From the NCBI GenBank assembly GCA_017429525.1, contig JAFROT010000013.1, positions 62,001-126,000 on the forward strand: DNA of 64,000 bases. The letters run 5' to 3'. This document shows positions 5,201-28,719 of the stretch, piece after piece. Position 1 is the first letter of the stretch, and each line of letters begins with the position of its first letter. The notes below the pieces were generated by a model. The model was not told the origin of the DNA, searched no databases, and saw only the letters and a list, made by a program, of their open reading frames with translations. A program made the translations under genes and the position numbers. The DNA is from Bacteroidaceae bacterium. GTDB taxonomy: Bacteria; Bacteroidota; Bacteroidia; Bacteroidales; Bacteroidaceae.

Positions 5201-6698
5201 CAACAACATACAGGTCTACGACCGCTACCATGGGCATGACAATCGCCAGCATCGAGGTGTACTCAACGGAGCGGTGCAGTTCGAGCATTTCAAGAACTTG
5301 CGCTACAACTTCCAGGTCGAGGCTCACGACATCTTGGGCTATGACTTCCACGACTTTGGCGATCAGACATTCTACGGCACGGTCTTCGCTGATGGCAACG
5401 TCAAGCTCAACGGCTATCCTGGCTCGCTGAACGTAGACCTGCAATGCCGTCCCACGGCGGGAACCGTCTTCACTTACAACGCCTCTTCGCCCGAGACGAT
5501 GACGGACAATCAGTTTATTACGTTCAAGAAGGAAGAGAAAGAAGCGACCACAGCAGACGCTCCCCCCGCCCTCCCTGGTAGGGAGGGAGCGGTCACCAGC
5601 CCCGTTCTGCCAACGTCTGCCTCTCAAACTCATCCTGCTCCCTCCCAACACGGGAGGGCGGGGGGAGAGTCCTCGGGGGGAGACTCCTCCTCCGACGAAG
5701 AAGAGAACGACATGCGCATCAACTTCGACCTCGACATCACCCCGACGGCGCAGATGCGACTGCTCATGGACCCACGCTCCGAGGATTACATCACCCTTTT
5801 CGGCGACGGACACATACGCGCGAACTTCTATAATAAAGGACGCTTCCAGATGTACGGCACTTACCGCGTCGACCATGGCACCTACCGCCTCTCGCTGCAG
5901 GACGTCATCCGCAAGGACTTCCAGTTCCAGCAAGGCAGTACCATCGTCTTCGGCGGTCAGCCCATGAAGGCCGACCTCAAGCTGCAGGCCGTCTACACCG
6001 TCCCCAGCGTCTCCCTCAACGACCTTACCGTAGGCAGCAACTTCTCGGCCTCTAACGTCAGGGTCAACTGCATCATGAACATCGGCGGACGGGCCGAACA
6101 GCCACAAGTGTCCTTTGACTTCGACATCCCCAACGTCAACGAGGACGAGAAGCAGATGGTGCGCTCACTCATCTCTACCGACGAAGAGCGCAACATGCAG
6201 GTCATCTACCTCCTCGGCATCGGGCGCTTCTACACCTACGGTCTCGCCGCCGACCAGAGCCAGGCCAATGCCGCCGTCCAGAGCCTGCTCTCGTCTACCC
6301 TTTCCGGCCAGCTCAACAACTTCCTCTCCAACGCCATCGGTAATGGCAACTGGAACTTCGGCACCAACCTGTCCACGGGCAACCAAGGATGGAACGAGGT
6401 TGACGTCGAAGGCATGCTCAGCGGACGCCTGCTCAACAACCGCCTGCTCATCAATGGCACCTTCGGCTACCGCGACACGCCCATCGCCAACACCAACTTC
6501 ATCGGCGACTTCGACGTGCAATGGCTGCTCACGCCCTCGGGCAACCTCAGCCTGAAAGCCTACAGCGAGACCAACGACCGCTATTTCACCAAGACGGCCC
6601 TCACGACGCAGGGCATCGGCATACAAGTCAAGAAGGACTTCAACACCCTCGGTGAACTCTTCAGACCGCGCCGCAGAACGACGGTTCCCAAGAAATAG
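2283..6698 (+). CDS. TamB-like translocation and assembly module protein (DUF490/TamB family)
   Basis: The predicted protein has 1471 residues, as expected for TamB/AsmA-like proteins of Bacteroidetes. It has an N-terminal hydrophobic anchor, a long beta-rich body of repeated strands and a C-terminal TamB domain (roughly residues 1120-1450, with RGRFQMYGTYRVDHGTYRLSLQD-like strands and IGRFYTYGL). Such proteins bridge the inner and outer membranes and take part in lipid transport or outer-membrane protein assembly. The annotated GTG start at 2283 gives only a short anchor. The frame is open back to 2238, and the upstream codons would add IKTFSYIIRFAVGI, a better membrane segment, but no ATG, GTG or TTG lies there. 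Residues about 1093-1140 are a low-complexity insert encoded by two palindromic repeats. No tamA lies beside it in this window. Confidence 0.85.
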   Translation: MLFAYLGLMLFTATPACQRWLAAKAAGVLSDELQTEVQLGNARLGLFNRVVLDDVLLLDQQNDTLLSAVRLSAKMDVWQLMKGRIRIENVQLFGYDLRLRRHAPDKPYNFQFILDRFASQDTTHTPLDLAISSIVVRRGSCSHELTYEPQAPHFSIAHLRLDSLKLKASINALTDTYAVVKISELSFAESFSKFKLNDVSLSVEATPTRLYVSPMNISLPNSELNCRLTATTTHKEPWKFIEGGRADLQLEGFVTPADLAPFVPALRTFNRPIHVKTSIAREDKRLNLGQLALNADGLTLNCNAKAHLNLTDTTLLVPLDELQLDLQQLAVDQAFYQPILQLLSRPDGKGPLKAETSDMLARLGDVRIAGTLEGRDTPRRSAADLIVQTAIGKAQVKGQLTASDLFELHAETEDVLLADLMQQADFPVNHLTVVADVQGSIKARTADGQVKATGLTVKGENLDQFVADVQLSPRQLKMRAALDDDNYEFDITTDLQSAVDVKLNEDMLEHLNGFVDIYDVGVHNSKQYYDLQSLRLAFNNDDHGHHFMARGDFIDAHADGHFRYSRLATTMQQLLHGALPSLIKAPKASAESTDDQLNFSVNVWDIAPLQQFIQSDIDLPEPGYIEGSVDGPSKRFTLHADLSHLVYGTQDLRAVSVLARQQDDSLMTFVTLQRMMENGPLDLTLDAGARNDRLSTVITWDDHNLPSQRGALSTTAQFLRDNAQKLGADITFHPTQVVVSDTIWNVHESQVSLHDGVVDVGGFQVSQLGRHLQVNGRVSRQQTDTLYADLRGINLQYVFGLIDFHDVEFAGLATGKVKTHGLMDDIAVDADLRVDDFTLNDGLLGQLYVTGGFGRKDERAIDLDAFIHEPLEGQISHVTALIKPGHEPGRGMELDVQARHLNTYFINEFTNSFFTDLQGQATGHAHLYGPFKQLELEGDLVLDTMAVTIDVLGTRYHLNGGDSVHLRPGSISFNNIQVYDRYHGHDNRQHRGVLNGAVQFEHFKNLRYNFQVEAHDILGYDFHDFGDQTFYGTVFADGNVKLNGYPGSLNVDLQCRPTAGTVFTYNASSPETMTDNQFITFKKEEKEATTADAPPALPGREGAVTSPVLPTSASQTHPAPSQHGRAGGESSGGDSSSDEEENDMRINFDLDITPTAQMRLLMDPRSEDYITLFGDGHIRANFYNKGRFQMYGTYRVDHGTYRLSLQDVIRKDFQFQQGSTIVFGGQPMKADLKLQAVYTVPSVSLNDLTVGSNFSASNVRVNCIMNIGGRAEQPQVSFDFDIPNVNEDEKQMVRSLISTDEERNMQVIYLLGIGRFYTYGLAADQSQANAAVQSLLSSTLSGQLNNFLSNAIGNGNWNFGTNLSTGNQGWNEVDVEGMLSGRLLNNRLLINGTFGYRDTPIANTNFIGDFDVQWLLTPSGNLSLKAYSETNDRYFTKTALTTQGIGIQVKKDFNTLGELFRPRRRTTVPKK
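5563..5690 (+). repeat. Two palindromic elements inside the tamB-like coding region
   Basis: Within the open frame, bases 5563-5600 hold the GCCCTCCCT / AGGGAGGGAGCGGT palindrome and bases 5638-5680 hold an inverted copy ending GGGCGGGGGGAG. They encode the proline/glycine-rich stretches APPALPGREGA and HPAPSQHGRAGGESS. The flanking acidic sequence (DEEEND) leads into the conserved C-terminal domain, so the elements appear tolerated as a linker. Confidence 0.8.
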
Positions 6699-24186: not shown

Positions 24187-25440
24187 ATGGAAAAGAATAC
24201 ATCCAGTCAAAAGGATACCGCTCCCTCCCTACAAGGGAGGGCGGGGGAAGGGTCCTCCTCTTCCTTAGAACTCAAATACGGTTGCAACCCCAACCAGAAG
24301 CCTTCACGTATCTTCATGGCCGACGGCTCAGCGCTGCCTATCCAGGTGCTTAGCGGCCGTCCCGGCTACATCAACTTCCTCGACGCCCTCAATGCCTGGC
24401 AGCTCGTGCGCGAGCTCAAGGAGGCTACCGGCCTGCCCGCCGCTACCTCTTTCAAGCATGTGTCGCCCGCCGGTGCTGCCGTAGGCCTGCCGCTGAGCGA
24501 TACGCTCCGTAAGATCTATTGGGTCGACGACATTGACTTCGAGTTGACGCCGATAGCTTCGGCTTACGCTCGTGCCCGCGGCGCTGACCGCATGAGTTCC
24601 TATGGTGACTTCATCGCCCTCAGCGACACTTGCGACCGCGCTACCGCCTTGCTCATCAAGCGTGAGGTGTCCGATGGCGTCATCGCACCGGCCTTTACGG
24701 ACGAGGCTTTGGCCATCCTGCGCGAGAAGCGTAAGGGCACGTACAACGTCATACAGATTGACACCGACTATCGCCCCGAACCCATTGAGCGCAAGCAGGT
24801 CTTCGGCATCACCTTCGAACAGGGACGCAACGAAGTCCGGCTGGACGACCCTGCCCTCTTCGAGAACATCCCGACAGCCGTGAAGGACTTCCCCGCCGAG
24901 GCTCGTCGCGACCTCATCATCGCCCTCATCACGCTCAAGTACACGCAGAGCAACAGCGTCTGCTACGTCAAGGACGGACAGGCCATCGGCATCGGCGCCG
25001 GACAGCAGAGCCGCATCCATTGCACGCGCCTCGCCGGACAGAAGGCCGACATCTGGTGGCTGCGTCAGCATCCGCAGGTGATGGCATTGCCTTTCGTGCC
25101 CGGCATCCGTCGTGCCGATCGCGACAACACCATCGACATCTATATCTCCGACGACCACGACGACGTCCTGCGCGATGGCGAATGGCAGAAGTTCTTCACC
25201 GAGCAACCGCCTGTGCTCACTCGCGAGCAGAAAGCCGAGTGGATAGCTCAGAACACAGATGTCAGCCTCGGCAGCGATGCCTTCTTCCCCTTCGGCGACA
25301 ACATCGAGCGCGCCCATAAGAGTGGTGTCCGCTTCGTCGCACAAGCCGGTGGCAGCGTCCGCGACGACCACGTCATCGCCACCTGCGACAAATACGGCAT
25401 CGCCATGGCCTTCACGGGTGTGAGGTTGTTCCATCATTAA
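24187..25440 (+). CDS. Stand-alone AICAR transformylase (PurH C-terminal-type)
   Basis: The 417-residue protein aligns by motif to the transformylase half of PurH: LKYGCNPNQKPSRIF, ATSFKHVSPAGAAVG (near residue 85), YTQSNSVCYVKDGQAIGIGAGQQSRIHCTRLA and the C-terminal AFTGVRLFHH. It lacks the IMP cyclohydrolase domain. It would formylate AICAR using 10-formyl-tetrahydrofolate in purine synthesis. The first 27 residues (MEKNTSSQKDTAPSLQGRAG and following) are encoded partly by a palindromic element and match the start of the next ORF almost exactly, so the ancestral start may lie at the LELKYG region. It stands alone between repeat clusters. Confidence 0.9.
   Translation: MEKNTSSQKDTAPSLQGRAGEGSSSSLELKYGCNPNQKPSRIFMADGSALPIQVLSGRPGYINFLDALNAWQLVRELKEATGLPAATSFKHVSPAGAAVGLPLSDTLRKIYWVDDIDFELTPIASAYARARGADRMSSYGDFIALSDTCDRATALLIKREVSDGVIAPAFTDEALAILREKRKGTYNVIQIDTDYRPEPIERKQVFGITFEQGRNEVRLDDPALFENIPTAVKDFPAEARRDLIIALITLKYTQSNSVCYVKDGQAIGIGAGQQSRIHCTRLAGQKADIWWLRQHPQVMALPFVPGIRRADRDNTIDIYISDDHDDVLRDGEWQKFFTEQPPVLTREQKAEWIAQNTDVSLGSDAFFPFGDNIERAHKSGVRFVAQAGGSVRDDHVIATCDKYGIAMAFTGVRLFHH
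24220..24256 (+). repeat. Palindromic element inside the start of the AICAR transformylase ORF
   Basis: GCTCCCTCCC, a short loop and GGGAGGGCGGGG form the same palindrome as in the intergenic copies. It is read as TAPSLQGRAGEG in the protein. Confidence 0.85.
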
Positions 25441-25539: not shown

Positions 25540-25830
25540 ATGGAAAAGAACACATCCAGTCAAAAGGATACCGCTCCCTCCCTACAAGGGAGGGCGGGGG
25601 GAGGGTCTTCCGGGGGTGGGTCTTCTTTCGGTGGCGACGACATCGATAGCGTCATCATGGGAGGCATCACTTTCCGAGGGGCGTCCAAGTCGCCGCGACG
25701 TGATGACAACGGGAAGGTCAAGACGAAGGCCAAGAAGAAATCCTATATCACGGGTGCTCACGGTTCGGCGTCGTCCAAGAAGAAAGCAGACATCCGTCGA
25801 GCCCGCGCCAATCGCCACCGCGGCAGCTGA
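25540..25830 (+). CDS. Small basic protein with repeat-derived N-terminus
   Basis: The 96-residue ORF starts with the same MEKNTSSQKDTAPSLQGR sequence as the preceding gene, then a Gly/Ser stretch from a second palindrome copy (25572-25620). It then has a distinct core, GGDDIDSVIMGGITFRGASK, and a very basic tail (KTKAKKKSY, SSKKKADIRRARANRHRGS). I do not recognise the core. The composition suggests nucleic-acid or ribosome binding, which is inference. The core may be an old small gene that gained its N-terminus by repeat duplication. A strong hairpin at 26011-26048 ends the region. Confidence 0.5.
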   Translation: MEKNTSSQKDTAPSLQGRAGGGSSGGGSSFGGDDIDSVIMGGITFRGASKSPRRDDNGKVKTKAKKKSYITGAHGSASSKKKADIRRARANRHRGS

Positions 25831-25894
25831 CGCATGACTCGGCGATGGCCGACAGTCGTTCAGCATGACATGTACGGCCGCGGCCATTTACACA

Positions 25895-26016
25895 TATAGA
25901 CGCGAAGGCTGACACGTATAGACGTGAAGGCCGATACATATAGACGTGAAGGCTGATACGTATAGACGTGAAGGCCGATACATATAGACATGAAGGCCGA
26001 TACATATAGACGCATG
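25895..26016. repeat. Six-unit tandem repeat with 22-bp period
   Basis: TATAGAC occurs at 25895, 25917, 25939, 25961, 25983 and 26005, exactly 22 bases apart. Each of the first five is followed by GTGAAGGCCGATAC or a close variant. The array is between genes and has the same period as those near 7494 and 46243. Confidence 0.95.
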
Positions 26017-26048
26017 AGGTGGATCACTATGGTGGTCCACCTCATGCG
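26011..26048 (+). terminator. Long hairpin closing the 22-bp repeat array
   Basis: CGCATGAGGTGGA at 26011 pairs with TCCACCTCATGCG ending at 26048; the stem is about 17 bp with one G-T pair and is followed by TTTGTTCG. It overlaps the last 22-bp repeat unit. The rest of the gap to 26173 shows nothing recognisable. Confidence 0.65.
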
Positions 26049-26173
26049 TTTGTTCGTGTTAGCACTAAAGAATGGTTGCGAATGTGTTGTCGAATGAATG
26101 TAAAGGCTTTCACGACCTTATGTATTCAAGGCTGCGAATAGCGGTATTTGGCTTTGCCTTTACTGCAAGGAGG

Positions 26174-26575
26174 TTACGTGAGATTGAAGTAAGCGCGACC
26201 ATCAGCAATCTTGACGTCGAGAACCTCTAAAGGCTGAAAGCGGTAGCGGGGCACTATGCTTTCGGCAAGCGTAAAATCCGTGGTCTCATACTGATGATTG
26301 TAGGCGCTGAAGCCTACGTTATATTTCTCCAGCTGACCTTCGGGCTTAAGCGAACGCAGCAGGGCATAGGTCTGCACGCCTAAGTAATGCCCATCGGGAG
26401 CCGAGATAGTTGCCAGGCCATTCATGAATTCTCCGCGCGTGTACTGTCCGCTATGATTCAGGTCGAGGTAGATATAGGAATCAAATTCCGTCAGTGGCCG
26501 CATGCAAGCCGAGACGTCCTCCTTCGGGGAGAACGTCTCTACGTTAAGCTCGGGCTTTGCGTATCCTAATCGCAT
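26174..26575 (-). CDS. Small leader-bearing protein C (third gene of an unknown cluster)
   Basis: The 133-residue protein starts MRLGYAKPELNVETFSPKED and shares Y.KP.L..E.F.P and a following cysteine (VSAC, residue 24) with the two genes before it. After the cysteine it has YLDLNHSGQYTRGE, a degenerate form of the Ca-binding-like loop of protein B, and it ends DGRAYFNLT, parallel to DGRLYMNAS in protein B. No signal peptide or membrane helix is visible. It starts 51 bases after protein B on the same strand. The function is unknown. Confidence 0.65.
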   Translation of the reverse strand: MRLGYAKPELNVETFSPKEDVSACMRPLTEFDSYIYLDLNHSGQYTRGEFMNGLATISAPDGHYLGVQTYALLRSLKPEGQLEKYNVGFSAYNHQYETTDFTLAESIVPRYRFQPLEVLDVKIADGRAYFNLT

Positions 26576-26625
26576 GAAGCGCTAATATATTGTATTAAAG
26601 AAAATCACATCTATTACAATGGTGA

Positions 26626-27000
26626 TTAAGAGGCGTTCATGTATAACCGCCCATCAACAATATTTACGGTTGGACCAGGACGGAATGTATAGTTACGGCC
26701 AGAAATCTTAAAAATATAAGAATAAGATTGATTAATGCCTACAGATACATTACCATTATAATCCACAAAATCATGGCTATTACCATTCGATGTTGCCCTC
26801 TGAAGATAATATATCTGTATATCTTTATAATTCATAGAAGGGATAGTATTTTCTCCTGAATCAAAATTGCCATCTCTATTCAAATCATAATAAGCGGTGG
26901 CTGTCGTTTGGTGATTAAAAGGAGTCGTACAAGGATTGCAATACTCTTGCGGCGTAAATTTCTCGGTTTTAAGTTGTGGTTTTGAATATGTTTTTTTCAT
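26626..27000 (-). CDS. Small leader-bearing protein B with dockerin/EF-hand-like loop
   Basis: The 124-residue protein starts MKKTYSKPQLKTEKFTPQEY followed by CNPC (residues 21-24). DLNRDGNFDSGE (near residue 39) fits the D-x-N-x-D-G-x-x-D calcium-binding loop. The rest is rich in Tyr, Asn and short beta-type stretches and ends DGRLYMNAS. The gene is visibly AT-rich compared with its GC-rich neighbours, a sign of different origin or selection. A perfect palindrome (27035-27056) with a T run lies 35 bases before its start codon. I do not know its function. Confidence 0.7.
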   Translation of the reverse strand: MKKTYSKPQLKTEKFTPQEYCNPCTTPFNHQTTATAYYDLNRDGNFDSGENTIPSMNYKDIQIYYLQRATSNGNSHDFVDYNGNVSVGINQSYSYIFKISGRNYTFRPGPTVNIVDGRLYMNAS

Positions 27001-27034
27001 CTTTCTGAAGCATATATGTATTTAACTGATAAAA

Positions 27035-27056
27035 GGTGCCCTGAATTCAGGGCACC
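27035..27056 (-). terminator. Palindromic hairpin between small genes A and B
   Basis: A perfect 22-base palindrome built on GGTGCCCTGAA/TTCAGGGCACC is followed on the minus strand by TTTTATC. It can end transcripts of gene A or act in the leader of gene B, whose start is 35 bases further on. Confidence 0.75.
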
Positions 27057-27081
27057 CTTATGATTATTATATTTTTGAGAC

Positions 27082-27534
27082 TTATGAGTGATTGGGTTGA
27101 CTTTCCATAAATCTGAATGTCGGATCATAGGTAAAATGCACATTTCCATTGACTAGCCATCCCCATCCGTCATACTGTTCTTGACCACTTGAACTCCTTC
27201 CATGTGCAACTTCAATTGCATCACTTGAAGTTGATGCACTTTGAGGATCCTCAACCTTAATAATATATTCAGTTAATGTGGGAAAGTTTTGTGCAGTAGG
27301 AACTATACCATCAGGCAATTGTAAATGATATGTAACAGGATGCGCTGTGTGACCATTCCAGTGCATATCATATTCATGTGTATCTGGTGGGAATGTGATA
27401 TACCTAATATTATGACCTTGTGAACCTGATTCTCCAAGACATTGGACGGTTGCAATATAACATGCATTACAGTAGTCCTGCGGCTCGAAAGCCTCAGCAG
27501 TCAGGACTGGTTTTGAATAGATTTTCTTTTCCAT
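27082..27534 (-). CDS. Small leader-bearing protein A (first gene of the cluster)
   Basis: The 150-residue protein starts MEKKIYSKPVLTAEAFEPQD followed by YCNAC (residues 21-25), closely matching protein B. The rest has a third cysteine (QCLGESG) and is rich in His, Ser and aromatic residues, including WNGHTAHPVTYHL and DGWGWLVNGNVHFTYD. It has no export signal of the usual kind. The shared N-terminus, variable body and tandem arrangement resemble precursor families in which a leader is recognised by a processing or transport system, but no such enzyme is in the window. Confidence 0.7.
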   Translation of the reverse strand: MEKKIYSKPVLTAEAFEPQDYCNACYIATVQCLGESGSQGHNIRYITFPPDTHEYDMHWNGHTAHPVTYHLQLPDGIVPTAQNFPTLTEYIIKVEDPQSASTSSDAIEVAHGRSSSGQEQYDGWGWLVNGNVHFTYDPTFRFMESQPNHS

Positions 27535-27581: not shown

Positions 27582-27611
27582 GGATACTCGAACTTCGCAG
27601 TCAGAGTATCC
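27582..27611 (-). terminator. Hairpin in the 5' leader of the small-gene cluster
   Basis: GGATACTC (27582-27589) pairs with GAGTATCC (27604-27611) around a 14-base loop. On the minus strand it is followed by TTTTAAAAAG. It lies downstream of a good promoter (27710-27679) and 48 bases before gene A, so it may be an attenuator rather than only the end of the AraC transcript. Confidence 0.55.
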
Positions 27612-27738: not shown

Positions 27739-28719
27739 CTACTCTTCGACATCATTTGAACACCCTGAGTTGCGCTGATACTGTGTGGGCGACTGTCCGG
27801 TCTGCTTACGGAAGAATTTACTGAAAGAAGTGAGGTTGGGGAAGCCGAGTGCAACGGCCACCTCCTTGATGATGAGCTTGCGGTCTTTCAGTAGCCGCTT
27901 GGCATGGAAGAGGAGCCGACGATTGATGCACTCCTGCGTGGAAATGCCCTCAACATAATTGCAGCACTTGTTGAGGTAGTTGACAGAGATGCATTGGCTC
28001 TGCGCGTAGAAGGCAGCCGAACGGGAGTCGGAATAGTGTTTTTCAAGCTCTTTCTTGAACGCCTCTACGATCAGACTGGCTCTCGAACTCAAGGGCTGCG
28101 TTTCGTCCTTCGCCAACTGAGCAAAGATGAGCTCAATCATTGAGGCTACCATCTCGCGAGCAAAAGGATGTTCCTCATCGAGGACAACTGCAGTCAGGAG
28201 CTCGAAGGCCGTCGAGAGTTTTGTCTTCTCGCAGCAGCCGGCATAAAACAGCGACGTAGAGGCTGACGAAAGCTTCGCCCTGTCGCGACTGTCGGCACGA
28301 AGGACCGACGCAGAGGCTGACGACAGCTTTGACTCATCGCAACAACAAGCACTGACTAAAGGCGCAGAGAAGCCATCCGACATCGGGAGCGGGCACTCAC
28401 GATGGAGCATCTGCATGATCGCCGGACTCACCCAGACGGACTGCATCATGAAATCCTCGCTATATTGAACATCCTGTATCTTATCCAGCGAATTACAGAA
28501 GAAGAGGTCGCACGGCCTCATCTTCATGACTCTGCCTGGCAAAGTCAGCTGCGCCCAACCACTACAACAAAGGTTGACACTGAAGCCGCTAAAGTCATGA
28601 ATATATTCACGAAAGTGCAGTTCAGTGACATTATCAAAATAGACGACATCAGATCCTATCAGATGCTTTGATAGCTTCTTATAGTAGTCTGAATCATGAA
28701 ACTCTTTCTGCCTCGACAT
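27739..28719 (-). CDS. AraC-family transcriptional regulator with in-frame repeats
   Basis: The 326-residue protein has a C-terminal AraC DNA-binding domain with two helix-turn-helix motifs (SVNYLNKCCNYVEGISTQECI and IKEVAVALGFPNLTSFSKFFRKQTGQSPTQYQ-like). Its N-terminal sensor region begins around LIGSDVVYFDNVTELHF. Residues about 123-173 contain 18-residue repeats beginning KLSSAS, which separate the sensor from the rest. It is a candidate activator of the adjacent GH106/GH28 operon or of the small-gene cluster. Two direct repeats upstream suggest autoregulation. Confidence 0.88.
   Translation of the reverse strand: MSRQKEFHDSDYYKKLSKHLIGSDVVYFDNVTELHFREYIHDFSGFSVNLCCSGWAQLTLPGRVMKMRPCDLFFCNSLDKIQDVQYSEDFMMQSVWVSPAIMQMLHRECPLPMSDGFSAPLVSACCCDESKLSSASASVLRADSRDRAKLSSASTSLFYAGCCEKTKLSTAFELLTAVVLDEEHPFAREMVASMIELIFAQLAKDETQPLSSRASLIVEAFKKELEKHYSDSRSAAFYAQSQCISVNYLNKCCNYVEGISTQECINRRLLFHAKRLLKDRKLIIKEVAVALGFPNLTSFSKFFRKQTGQSPTQYQRNSGCSNDVEE

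Follow-up and report, generated by a model that had tools for sequence, protein, structure and literature searches.

YxxP is a recognised motif for the RiPP recognition elements (RREs) of lasso-type pathways (PMC12710340). In the Bradymonas bsf cluster, which has a YxxPxL leader and encodes a nucleotidyltransferase, a PqqD-type RRE (B1) is described as speeding phosphorylation by an HprK-like kinase, the target being Ser3 of the core and not the C-terminus (PMC10368454). Kinases of the paeninodin type are described as modifying the C-terminal Ser, a residue extremely conserved in the precursors of kinase-bearing clusters (PMC9266682). As far as these sources describe them, the kinase-bearing lasso peptides (paeninodin, pseudomycoidin and Bradymonas bsf) resemble the family reported here in the YxxPxL leader, the discrete PqqD-type RRE, the HprK-like kinase, the conserved C-terminal Ser (paeninodin type), the nucleotidyltransferase and the ABC transporter (PMC10368454, PMC9266682, PMC7533575). 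The family, represented by three genes in a window of 64,000 nucleotides (the whole stretch of DNA analysed) from a Bacteroidaceae bacterium, differs from them in its bodies of about 100-150 aa, its radical SAM/SPASM enzyme and its S24-like protease. The Y.KP.L of the window genes conforms to the lasso leader pattern YxxPxL. Lasso cores are short, about 15-25 residues, and since family members are 120-175 aa long, they are not lasso peptides.

Two other groups of systems are close. RiPPs made by radical SAM/SPASM enzymes with PqqD (sactipeptides, ranthipeptides, SynChlorMet, GeoRSP) likewise have a separate PqqD chaperone and a SPASM-type radical SAM gene near small substrate genes, whereas the substrates of the present family are protein-sized and its radical SAM proteins fall far below the NCBIfam cut-off (three proteins, best 25 matches each: top scores 87, 106 and 99 bits against a cut-off of 500). 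The GG-leader RiPPs of Bacteroidales, as covered by a BAGEL4 survey, share with the family their Bacteroidales hosts and radical SAM enzymes, but their precursors carry GG motifs and mostly occur with peptidase-containing ABC transporters (PMC10352776), whereas GG is absent before the Cys of the family leaders. Taken together, sequence comparison suggests that the family works like an RRE-guided RiPP pathway, most like the kinase-bearing lasso systems in leader and C-terminus. No description of such a system was seen in the literature consulted, which did not extend to bioRxiv or to most articles behind a subscription.

Three window genes and their paralogs

An earlier note on this DNA had reported three minus-strand genes of 150, 124 and 133 aa with a common N-terminus, and this observation is confirmed. 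Gene 1 (27082..27534) has the leader MEKKIYSKPVLTAEAFEPQDYCNAC and ends in ..QPNHS; gene 2 (26626..27000) has the leader MKKTYSKPQLKTEKFTPQEYCNPC, a DLNRDG loop and the end ..YMNAS; gene 3 (26174..26575) has the leader MRLGYAKPELNVETFSPKEDVSAC, a DLNHSG loop and the end ..YFNLT. The reported Y.KP.L..E.F.P is found at residues 5-17 in genes 2 and 3 and at residues 6-18 in the 150-aa protein, and is followed, as described, by a cysteine motif (YCNAC, YCNPC and DVSAC) whose last Cys, near residue 24, aligns in all three proteins. Both the DLNxxGxF/Y loop and the DGRxYxN end occur in the 124- and 133-aa proteins and not in the 150-aa one. The genes had also been called AT-rich, which holds for the 150-aa and 124-aa genes (G+C 0.397 and 0.344, against 0.539 for the window) and fails for the 133-aa gene (0.520). 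Missed at that time was the terminal residue, which is Ser or Thr in all three proteins. None of the three reached the cut-off of a Pfam, NCBIfam or PHROGs model or gave an NCBIfam match up to E 10, and no other window ORF of 35-259 aa has the start of the N-terminal motif in its first 16 residues.

The trio is part of a larger set within its own genome, where nine paralogs that the earlier note had missed bring the family to 12 members in three places: the window (three), contig C31 (five) and contig C54 (four, including a full-length paralog of gene 3 at L014:7136-7537). A search with a 25-residue query pointed to 11 places, and a profile of 11 leaders recovered 12 members at E <= 2.8e-12, the sole other match lying at E = 1.09, so that the shared N-terminus is not due to chance.

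The dispersed genes also have an upstream element in common, likewise absent from the earlier note. In the 5'-UTR of gene 1, 47 nt before the gene, lies a hairpin (27582..27611, minus strand) of the form GGATACTC-(14 nt)-GAGTATCC, followed by TTTT. Allowing up to three mismatches, its core pattern has four sites in the 3.3-Mb genome, all upstream of family members and distributed over all three clusters, and the reversed pattern, used as a control, has none. Three of the four copies share more of the 5' region. One outer pair reads G-C in two of the copies and A-T in the remaining two, the innermost position varies between C-G and T-G, and a mismatch occurs in one copy; with just four sequences, the RNA structure is to be read as a hint. 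The common hairpin suggests that the dispersed genes are co-regulated. Between genes 1 and 2, a perfect palindrome GGTGCCCTGAATTCAGGGCACC (27035..27056, minus strand) that leads into a run of T on that strand resembles a terminator, and the AraC-family gene directly upstream of the cluster (27739..28719, minus strand) may encode its regulator; L060 and L061 also have AraC-type genes near members, and in L066 one lies 9 kb from a member. Elsewhere in the window, a GC-rich palindromic repeat CCCTCCCTnnnAGGGAGGG has five copies at up to two mismatches (at 5569, 5640, 23897, 24223 and 25576; 0.04 expected), the neighbouring ORFs 24187-25440 and 25540-25830 open with the same repeat-coded MEKNTSSQKDTAPSLQGRAG stretch, and a 22-bp unit in 5.5 tandem copies (25892-26012) adjoins a 20-pair hairpin (26007-26052).

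Within Bacteroidaceae, the family of the window's own species, 14 of 201 sampled genomes gave a match at E<=0.01; nine of them, the window's own included, contain full-length members, and in the other five the match is limited to the opening 10-13 residues of small peptides. At the level of the order, two of 393 genomes matched at E<=0.001, one of them being the window's own. A DNA pattern for the leader end retrieved 31 stretches from named genomes of gut Bacteroidota (Bacteroides, Phocaeicola, Parabacteroides and Prevotellaceae) and Firmicutes (Anaerostipes, Coprococcus, Roseburia, Thomasclavelia, Oscillospiraceae and others); two of these (L134 and L135) hold no member and were dropped, leaving 29 named loci. 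Since this pattern requires E.F.P[NQKH].Y[VIM]AA, it inflates the statistics of the residues directly preceding the Cys, whereas those of the C-terminus, which the pattern ignores, are unaffected. Ten relatives scanned up to E 1 matched no NCBIfam precursor model. In several genomes that do not carry the family (L028, L031, L040-L044, near base 1500-1540), peptides of 40-74 aa start with KKxYSKP, are otherwise different and do not end in Ser, and these possibly form another precursor family. Genes for AAA_14/DUF4143 ATPases are found among members in two genomes (L013:8194-9414 and L066:11682-12860).

Constant leader, variable body and terminal serine

Sixty-one distinct members, of 120-175 aa, were assembled from the window, the named loci and further genomes by N-terminal regular expressions, which miss some members. 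They fall into 18 body clusters, most bodies failing to align to each other, and across different clusters the leaders are on average 49% identical, against 8% when shuffled. A conserved leader joined to a variable remainder in a ribosomal product is thus found both among the 12 members of the window's own genome and across the 18 clusters. Two adjacent members on contig C31 illustrate the contrast: their DNA is 91% identical within the 75-nt leader and 27% identical in the 30 nt that follow, a pattern that recombination of leaders with bodies would produce. AlphaFold modelling of a relative (L154:3718-4128, 17 sequences; mean pLDDT 81.2) gave leader blocks at pLDDT 57-63 and a beta-rich body in which most blocks exceed 80; window gene 2 (mean pLDDT 43.5) yielded no usable model.

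The second constant element lies at the opposite end. Ser is the terminal residue in 58 of the 61 members, the exceptions being two Thr (window gene 3 and its paralog) and one Ala (..NASA), as compared with 30 Ser-terminal proteins among 387 other genes of the same loci. Seventeen of the 18 body clusters are Ser-terminal, and 14 of 15 further members from outside the set also end in Ser, the remaining one (L085) in Asn. Asn stands third from the end in 32 of the 61.

Enzyme genes that accompany the family

No modification or export enzyme adjoins the three genes in the window, in agreement with the earlier note, and the idea raised there that they encode precursors recognised through a leader gains its support from relatives. 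In related genomes, members adjoin a radical SAM gene encoding CxxxCxxC and C-terminal cysteines (PF04055 in both proteins scanned), and nearby are genes for a PqqD protein, an HprK-like P-loop protein, an S24-like peptidase, an NTP_transf_5 protein and an MsbA-like ABC exporter. Radical SAM genes occur in 17 of the 29 named loci, HprK-like genes in 14 and PqqD genes in 11, with at least one of the three in 21, several loci being cut off by contig or stretch ends. In eight distinct loci (L132, L136, L068, L069, L070, L071, L144 and L155), a PqqD-domain gene lies directly beside a member in the same direction, with gaps below 100 nt and, in L071, L144 and L155, an overlap of the PqqD gene with the start of the member. 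The gene order in Coprococcus catus (L136) is PqqD, member, radical SAM, HprK-like and S24, and in an Anaerostipes MAG (L144:4201-6153) the radical SAM enzyme and HprK-like kinase are fused in one ORF that adjoins PqqD and the member.

The HprK-like neighbour shows a weak similarity to SynChlorMet ScmC that does not reach the cut-off (E 2.3e-7). Alignment of 18 of these kinases revealed NGD in 16 where the lasso kinases have Asp-Asp, so that most lack the first Asp of His-Lys-Asp-Asp, and NDD only in the copies of the window's own genome and of G118. The S24-like proteins resemble processing proteases of the SipW and nickel-SOD type in having GxSMxPFL and HRI (11 of 11 aligned), whose Ser and His are typical of SipW-type peptidases, and differ from them in the linkage of their genes to PqqD and HprK-like genes; their best NCBIfam matches are to signal peptidase TIGR02228 and SipW, with a weaker one to the Ni-SOD protease, all below cut-off. 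Several enzyme cassettes and members are located in capsule or exopolysaccharide loci, where Poly_export, GNVR/AAA_31 ATPase, DegT, CpsB/CapC, Polysacc_synt_2, glycosyltransferase and PglD-like genes were recognised among 10 proteins chosen by eye. In the Prevotellaceae carriers G620 and G625, an operon of HprK, radical SAM, PqqD and NTP_transf_5 genes directly precedes polysaccharide export genes, and the members are on other contigs.

Among these enzymes it is radical SAM family A3 that marks the carriers. It was found in 28 of the 33 distinct carriers and in none of the 15 non-carriers (p = 1.4e-8 by Fisher's test, which treats the genomes as independent although they are not fully so), a comparison in which all 15 non-carriers come from the window's own family and Firmicutes make up 13 of the 28 named carriers. 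The association persists when the four genomes that seeded the profile are removed (24 of 29 versus 0 of 15, p = 7e-8) and when, with seeds out, the carriers are restricted to Bacteroidota (11 of 16 versus 0 of 15, p = 7e-5). The carriers comprise 28 named-locus genomes, 26 of which have A3, together with G000 (the window's own), G094, G105, G137 and G596; from the 31 named loci, L134 and L135 were left out for having no member and L145 for lying on the contig of L138. The cut-off was E<=1e-30 in the named-locus genomes and E<=1e-20 in the non-carriers and other carriers. Non-carriers were defined as having no full-length match to the member profile A2, which a more distant member could escape; weak matches were seen in G205 (E 0.006, 13 residues of a 59-aa peptide) and G003 (E 0.07, 13 residues). 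By contrast with A3, neither the HprK-like gene (29 of 33 carriers versus 11 of 15 non-carriers, p = 0.24), nor PqqD (24 of 25 genomes, including 14 of 15 non-carriers), nor NTP_transf_5 (18 of 25 genomes, including 11 of 15 non-carriers, one of them below cut-off) marks the family.

A3 was not found in the carriers G000, G137, G596, G616 and G621, and in G596 and G621 the HprK-like kinase was not found either. In G137, a carrier genome 99% complete, searches found no A3, HprK-like kinase or NTP_transf_5; its member nevertheless ends in PNHS, so the kinase cannot be the sole reason for the terminal Ser. The window's own genome, a draft of 3.3 Mb, has no A3 at E<=1e-20, the best of its 13 radical SAM matches reaching A3 only at 5e-15, and no NTP_transf_5. 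It does have one PqqD, one HprK-like and, in the stretches examined, one S24-like gene, all in one operon on contig C31 (L117:10072-11900, minus strand), beside what is presumably the housekeeping sigma factor gene. Such an operon is also present at L121:8192-10054 (plus strand) in a species of the same genus without the family. Its occurrence in the non-carrier G118 means that its usual substrate may be something else.

The window's species may therefore hold a reduced system that has lost its radical SAM enzyme, the 12 genes being relics or being served by the kinase-protease-PqqD operon alone, a reading we regard as rather unlikely while giving it some weight. It accords with the lack of A3 both here and in the carrier G616, which has the operon in the same order, but all 12 ORFs are open and four have the conserved upstream element; moreover, the draft is only 86% complete, so the absence of A3 may be real or a gap, and contig C31 begins just 347 bases before a member. 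That the members are instead small binding proteins, secreted or displayed at the surface, whose N-terminus is a sorting signal (lipobox-like in ..YVAAC) appears improbable. The N-terminus is charged, the neighbours in relatives are modification enzymes, and the window proteins have no hydrophobic segment as strong as a signal peptide: within their first 36 residues the highest 10-residue mean hydropathy is 0.31, -0.51 and 1.56, whereas two presumed signal peptides from the window reach 2.64 and 2.69, by a crude scan in which 11 of the 61 members exceed 1.6. Very improbable is a role as secretion-machine substrates, effectors with a common export signal and with toxins or enzymes as bodies, for although a common N-terminus with divergent cargo is usual for exported effectors and multi-copy clusters of unlike cargo are present, a scan of 13 members revealed no toxin or secretion domain above cut-off, and maturation is the better fit to a C-terminal Ser that hardly varies and to adjacent PqqD and radical SAM genes.

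Proposed maturation and its meaning

We consider it probable that the window trio are substrates of a leader-guided, RRE-dependent, RiPP-like maturation with large, interchangeable cargo. Residues 1 to about 24 would be the recognition leader, whose YxKPxL is bound by a PqqD-type RRE, and the unrelated bodies of 100-150 residues would be the cargo. Relatives with the fullest enzyme set would process this cargo with a radical SAM/SPASM enzyme and the HprK-like kinase. The kinase would probably modify the C-terminal Ser, which is nearly always present, and in some clusters the NTP_transf_5 protein would decorate that phosphate; the S24-like Ser-His protease would probably cut near the leader Cys, and the ABC exporter would carry the product to the outside. 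The 12 dispersed precursors of the window's own genome would be served in trans by the C31 operon, whose contig also holds five of them, and the radical SAM enzyme serving them would be either absent or in the unassembled part. The shared leader, the unrelated bodies, the terminal Ser, the gene neighbourhoods in relatives and the co-occurrence of the radical SAM gene are observed, and we infer leader binding, C-terminal phosphorylation, cleavage site, export and use of the C31 operon.

The individual steps carry different weight. Phosphorylation of the C-terminal Ser by the HprK-like kinase, as in lasso peptides of the paeninodin type, is proposed because the present family repeats the leader motif, the RRE, the kinase, the nucleotidyltransferase and the terminal Ser, and by this analogy it has a little under an even chance of being right. 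Cleavage at the leader Cys by the S24-like protease is put forward somewhat more tentatively. The mature bodies may be small binding proteins, the alternative offered by the earlier note. More speculatively, the hypervariable cargo could be matured at both ends, with the leader removed near the Cys and the terminal Ser phosphorylated and then glycosylated, and be attached to or exported with exopolysaccharide; the location of several enzyme cassettes in capsule or exopolysaccharide operons motivates this idea and does not prove it, and we hold it to be unlikely. If true, it would mean a general means of adorning the bacterial coat with small proteins that can replace one another.

The cores of RiPPs are usually short. 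In this family, a single leader and a single C-terminal residue persist through 18 clusters of bodies of roughly 100-150 residues, in two gut phyla and beside a recognisable set of enzymes that is often located in polysaccharide loci; a modified C-terminal Ser is the direct prediction. If the proposed steps are right, the family would represent a widespread protein-modification route of the gut, overlooked by genome mining for short cores or GG leaders.
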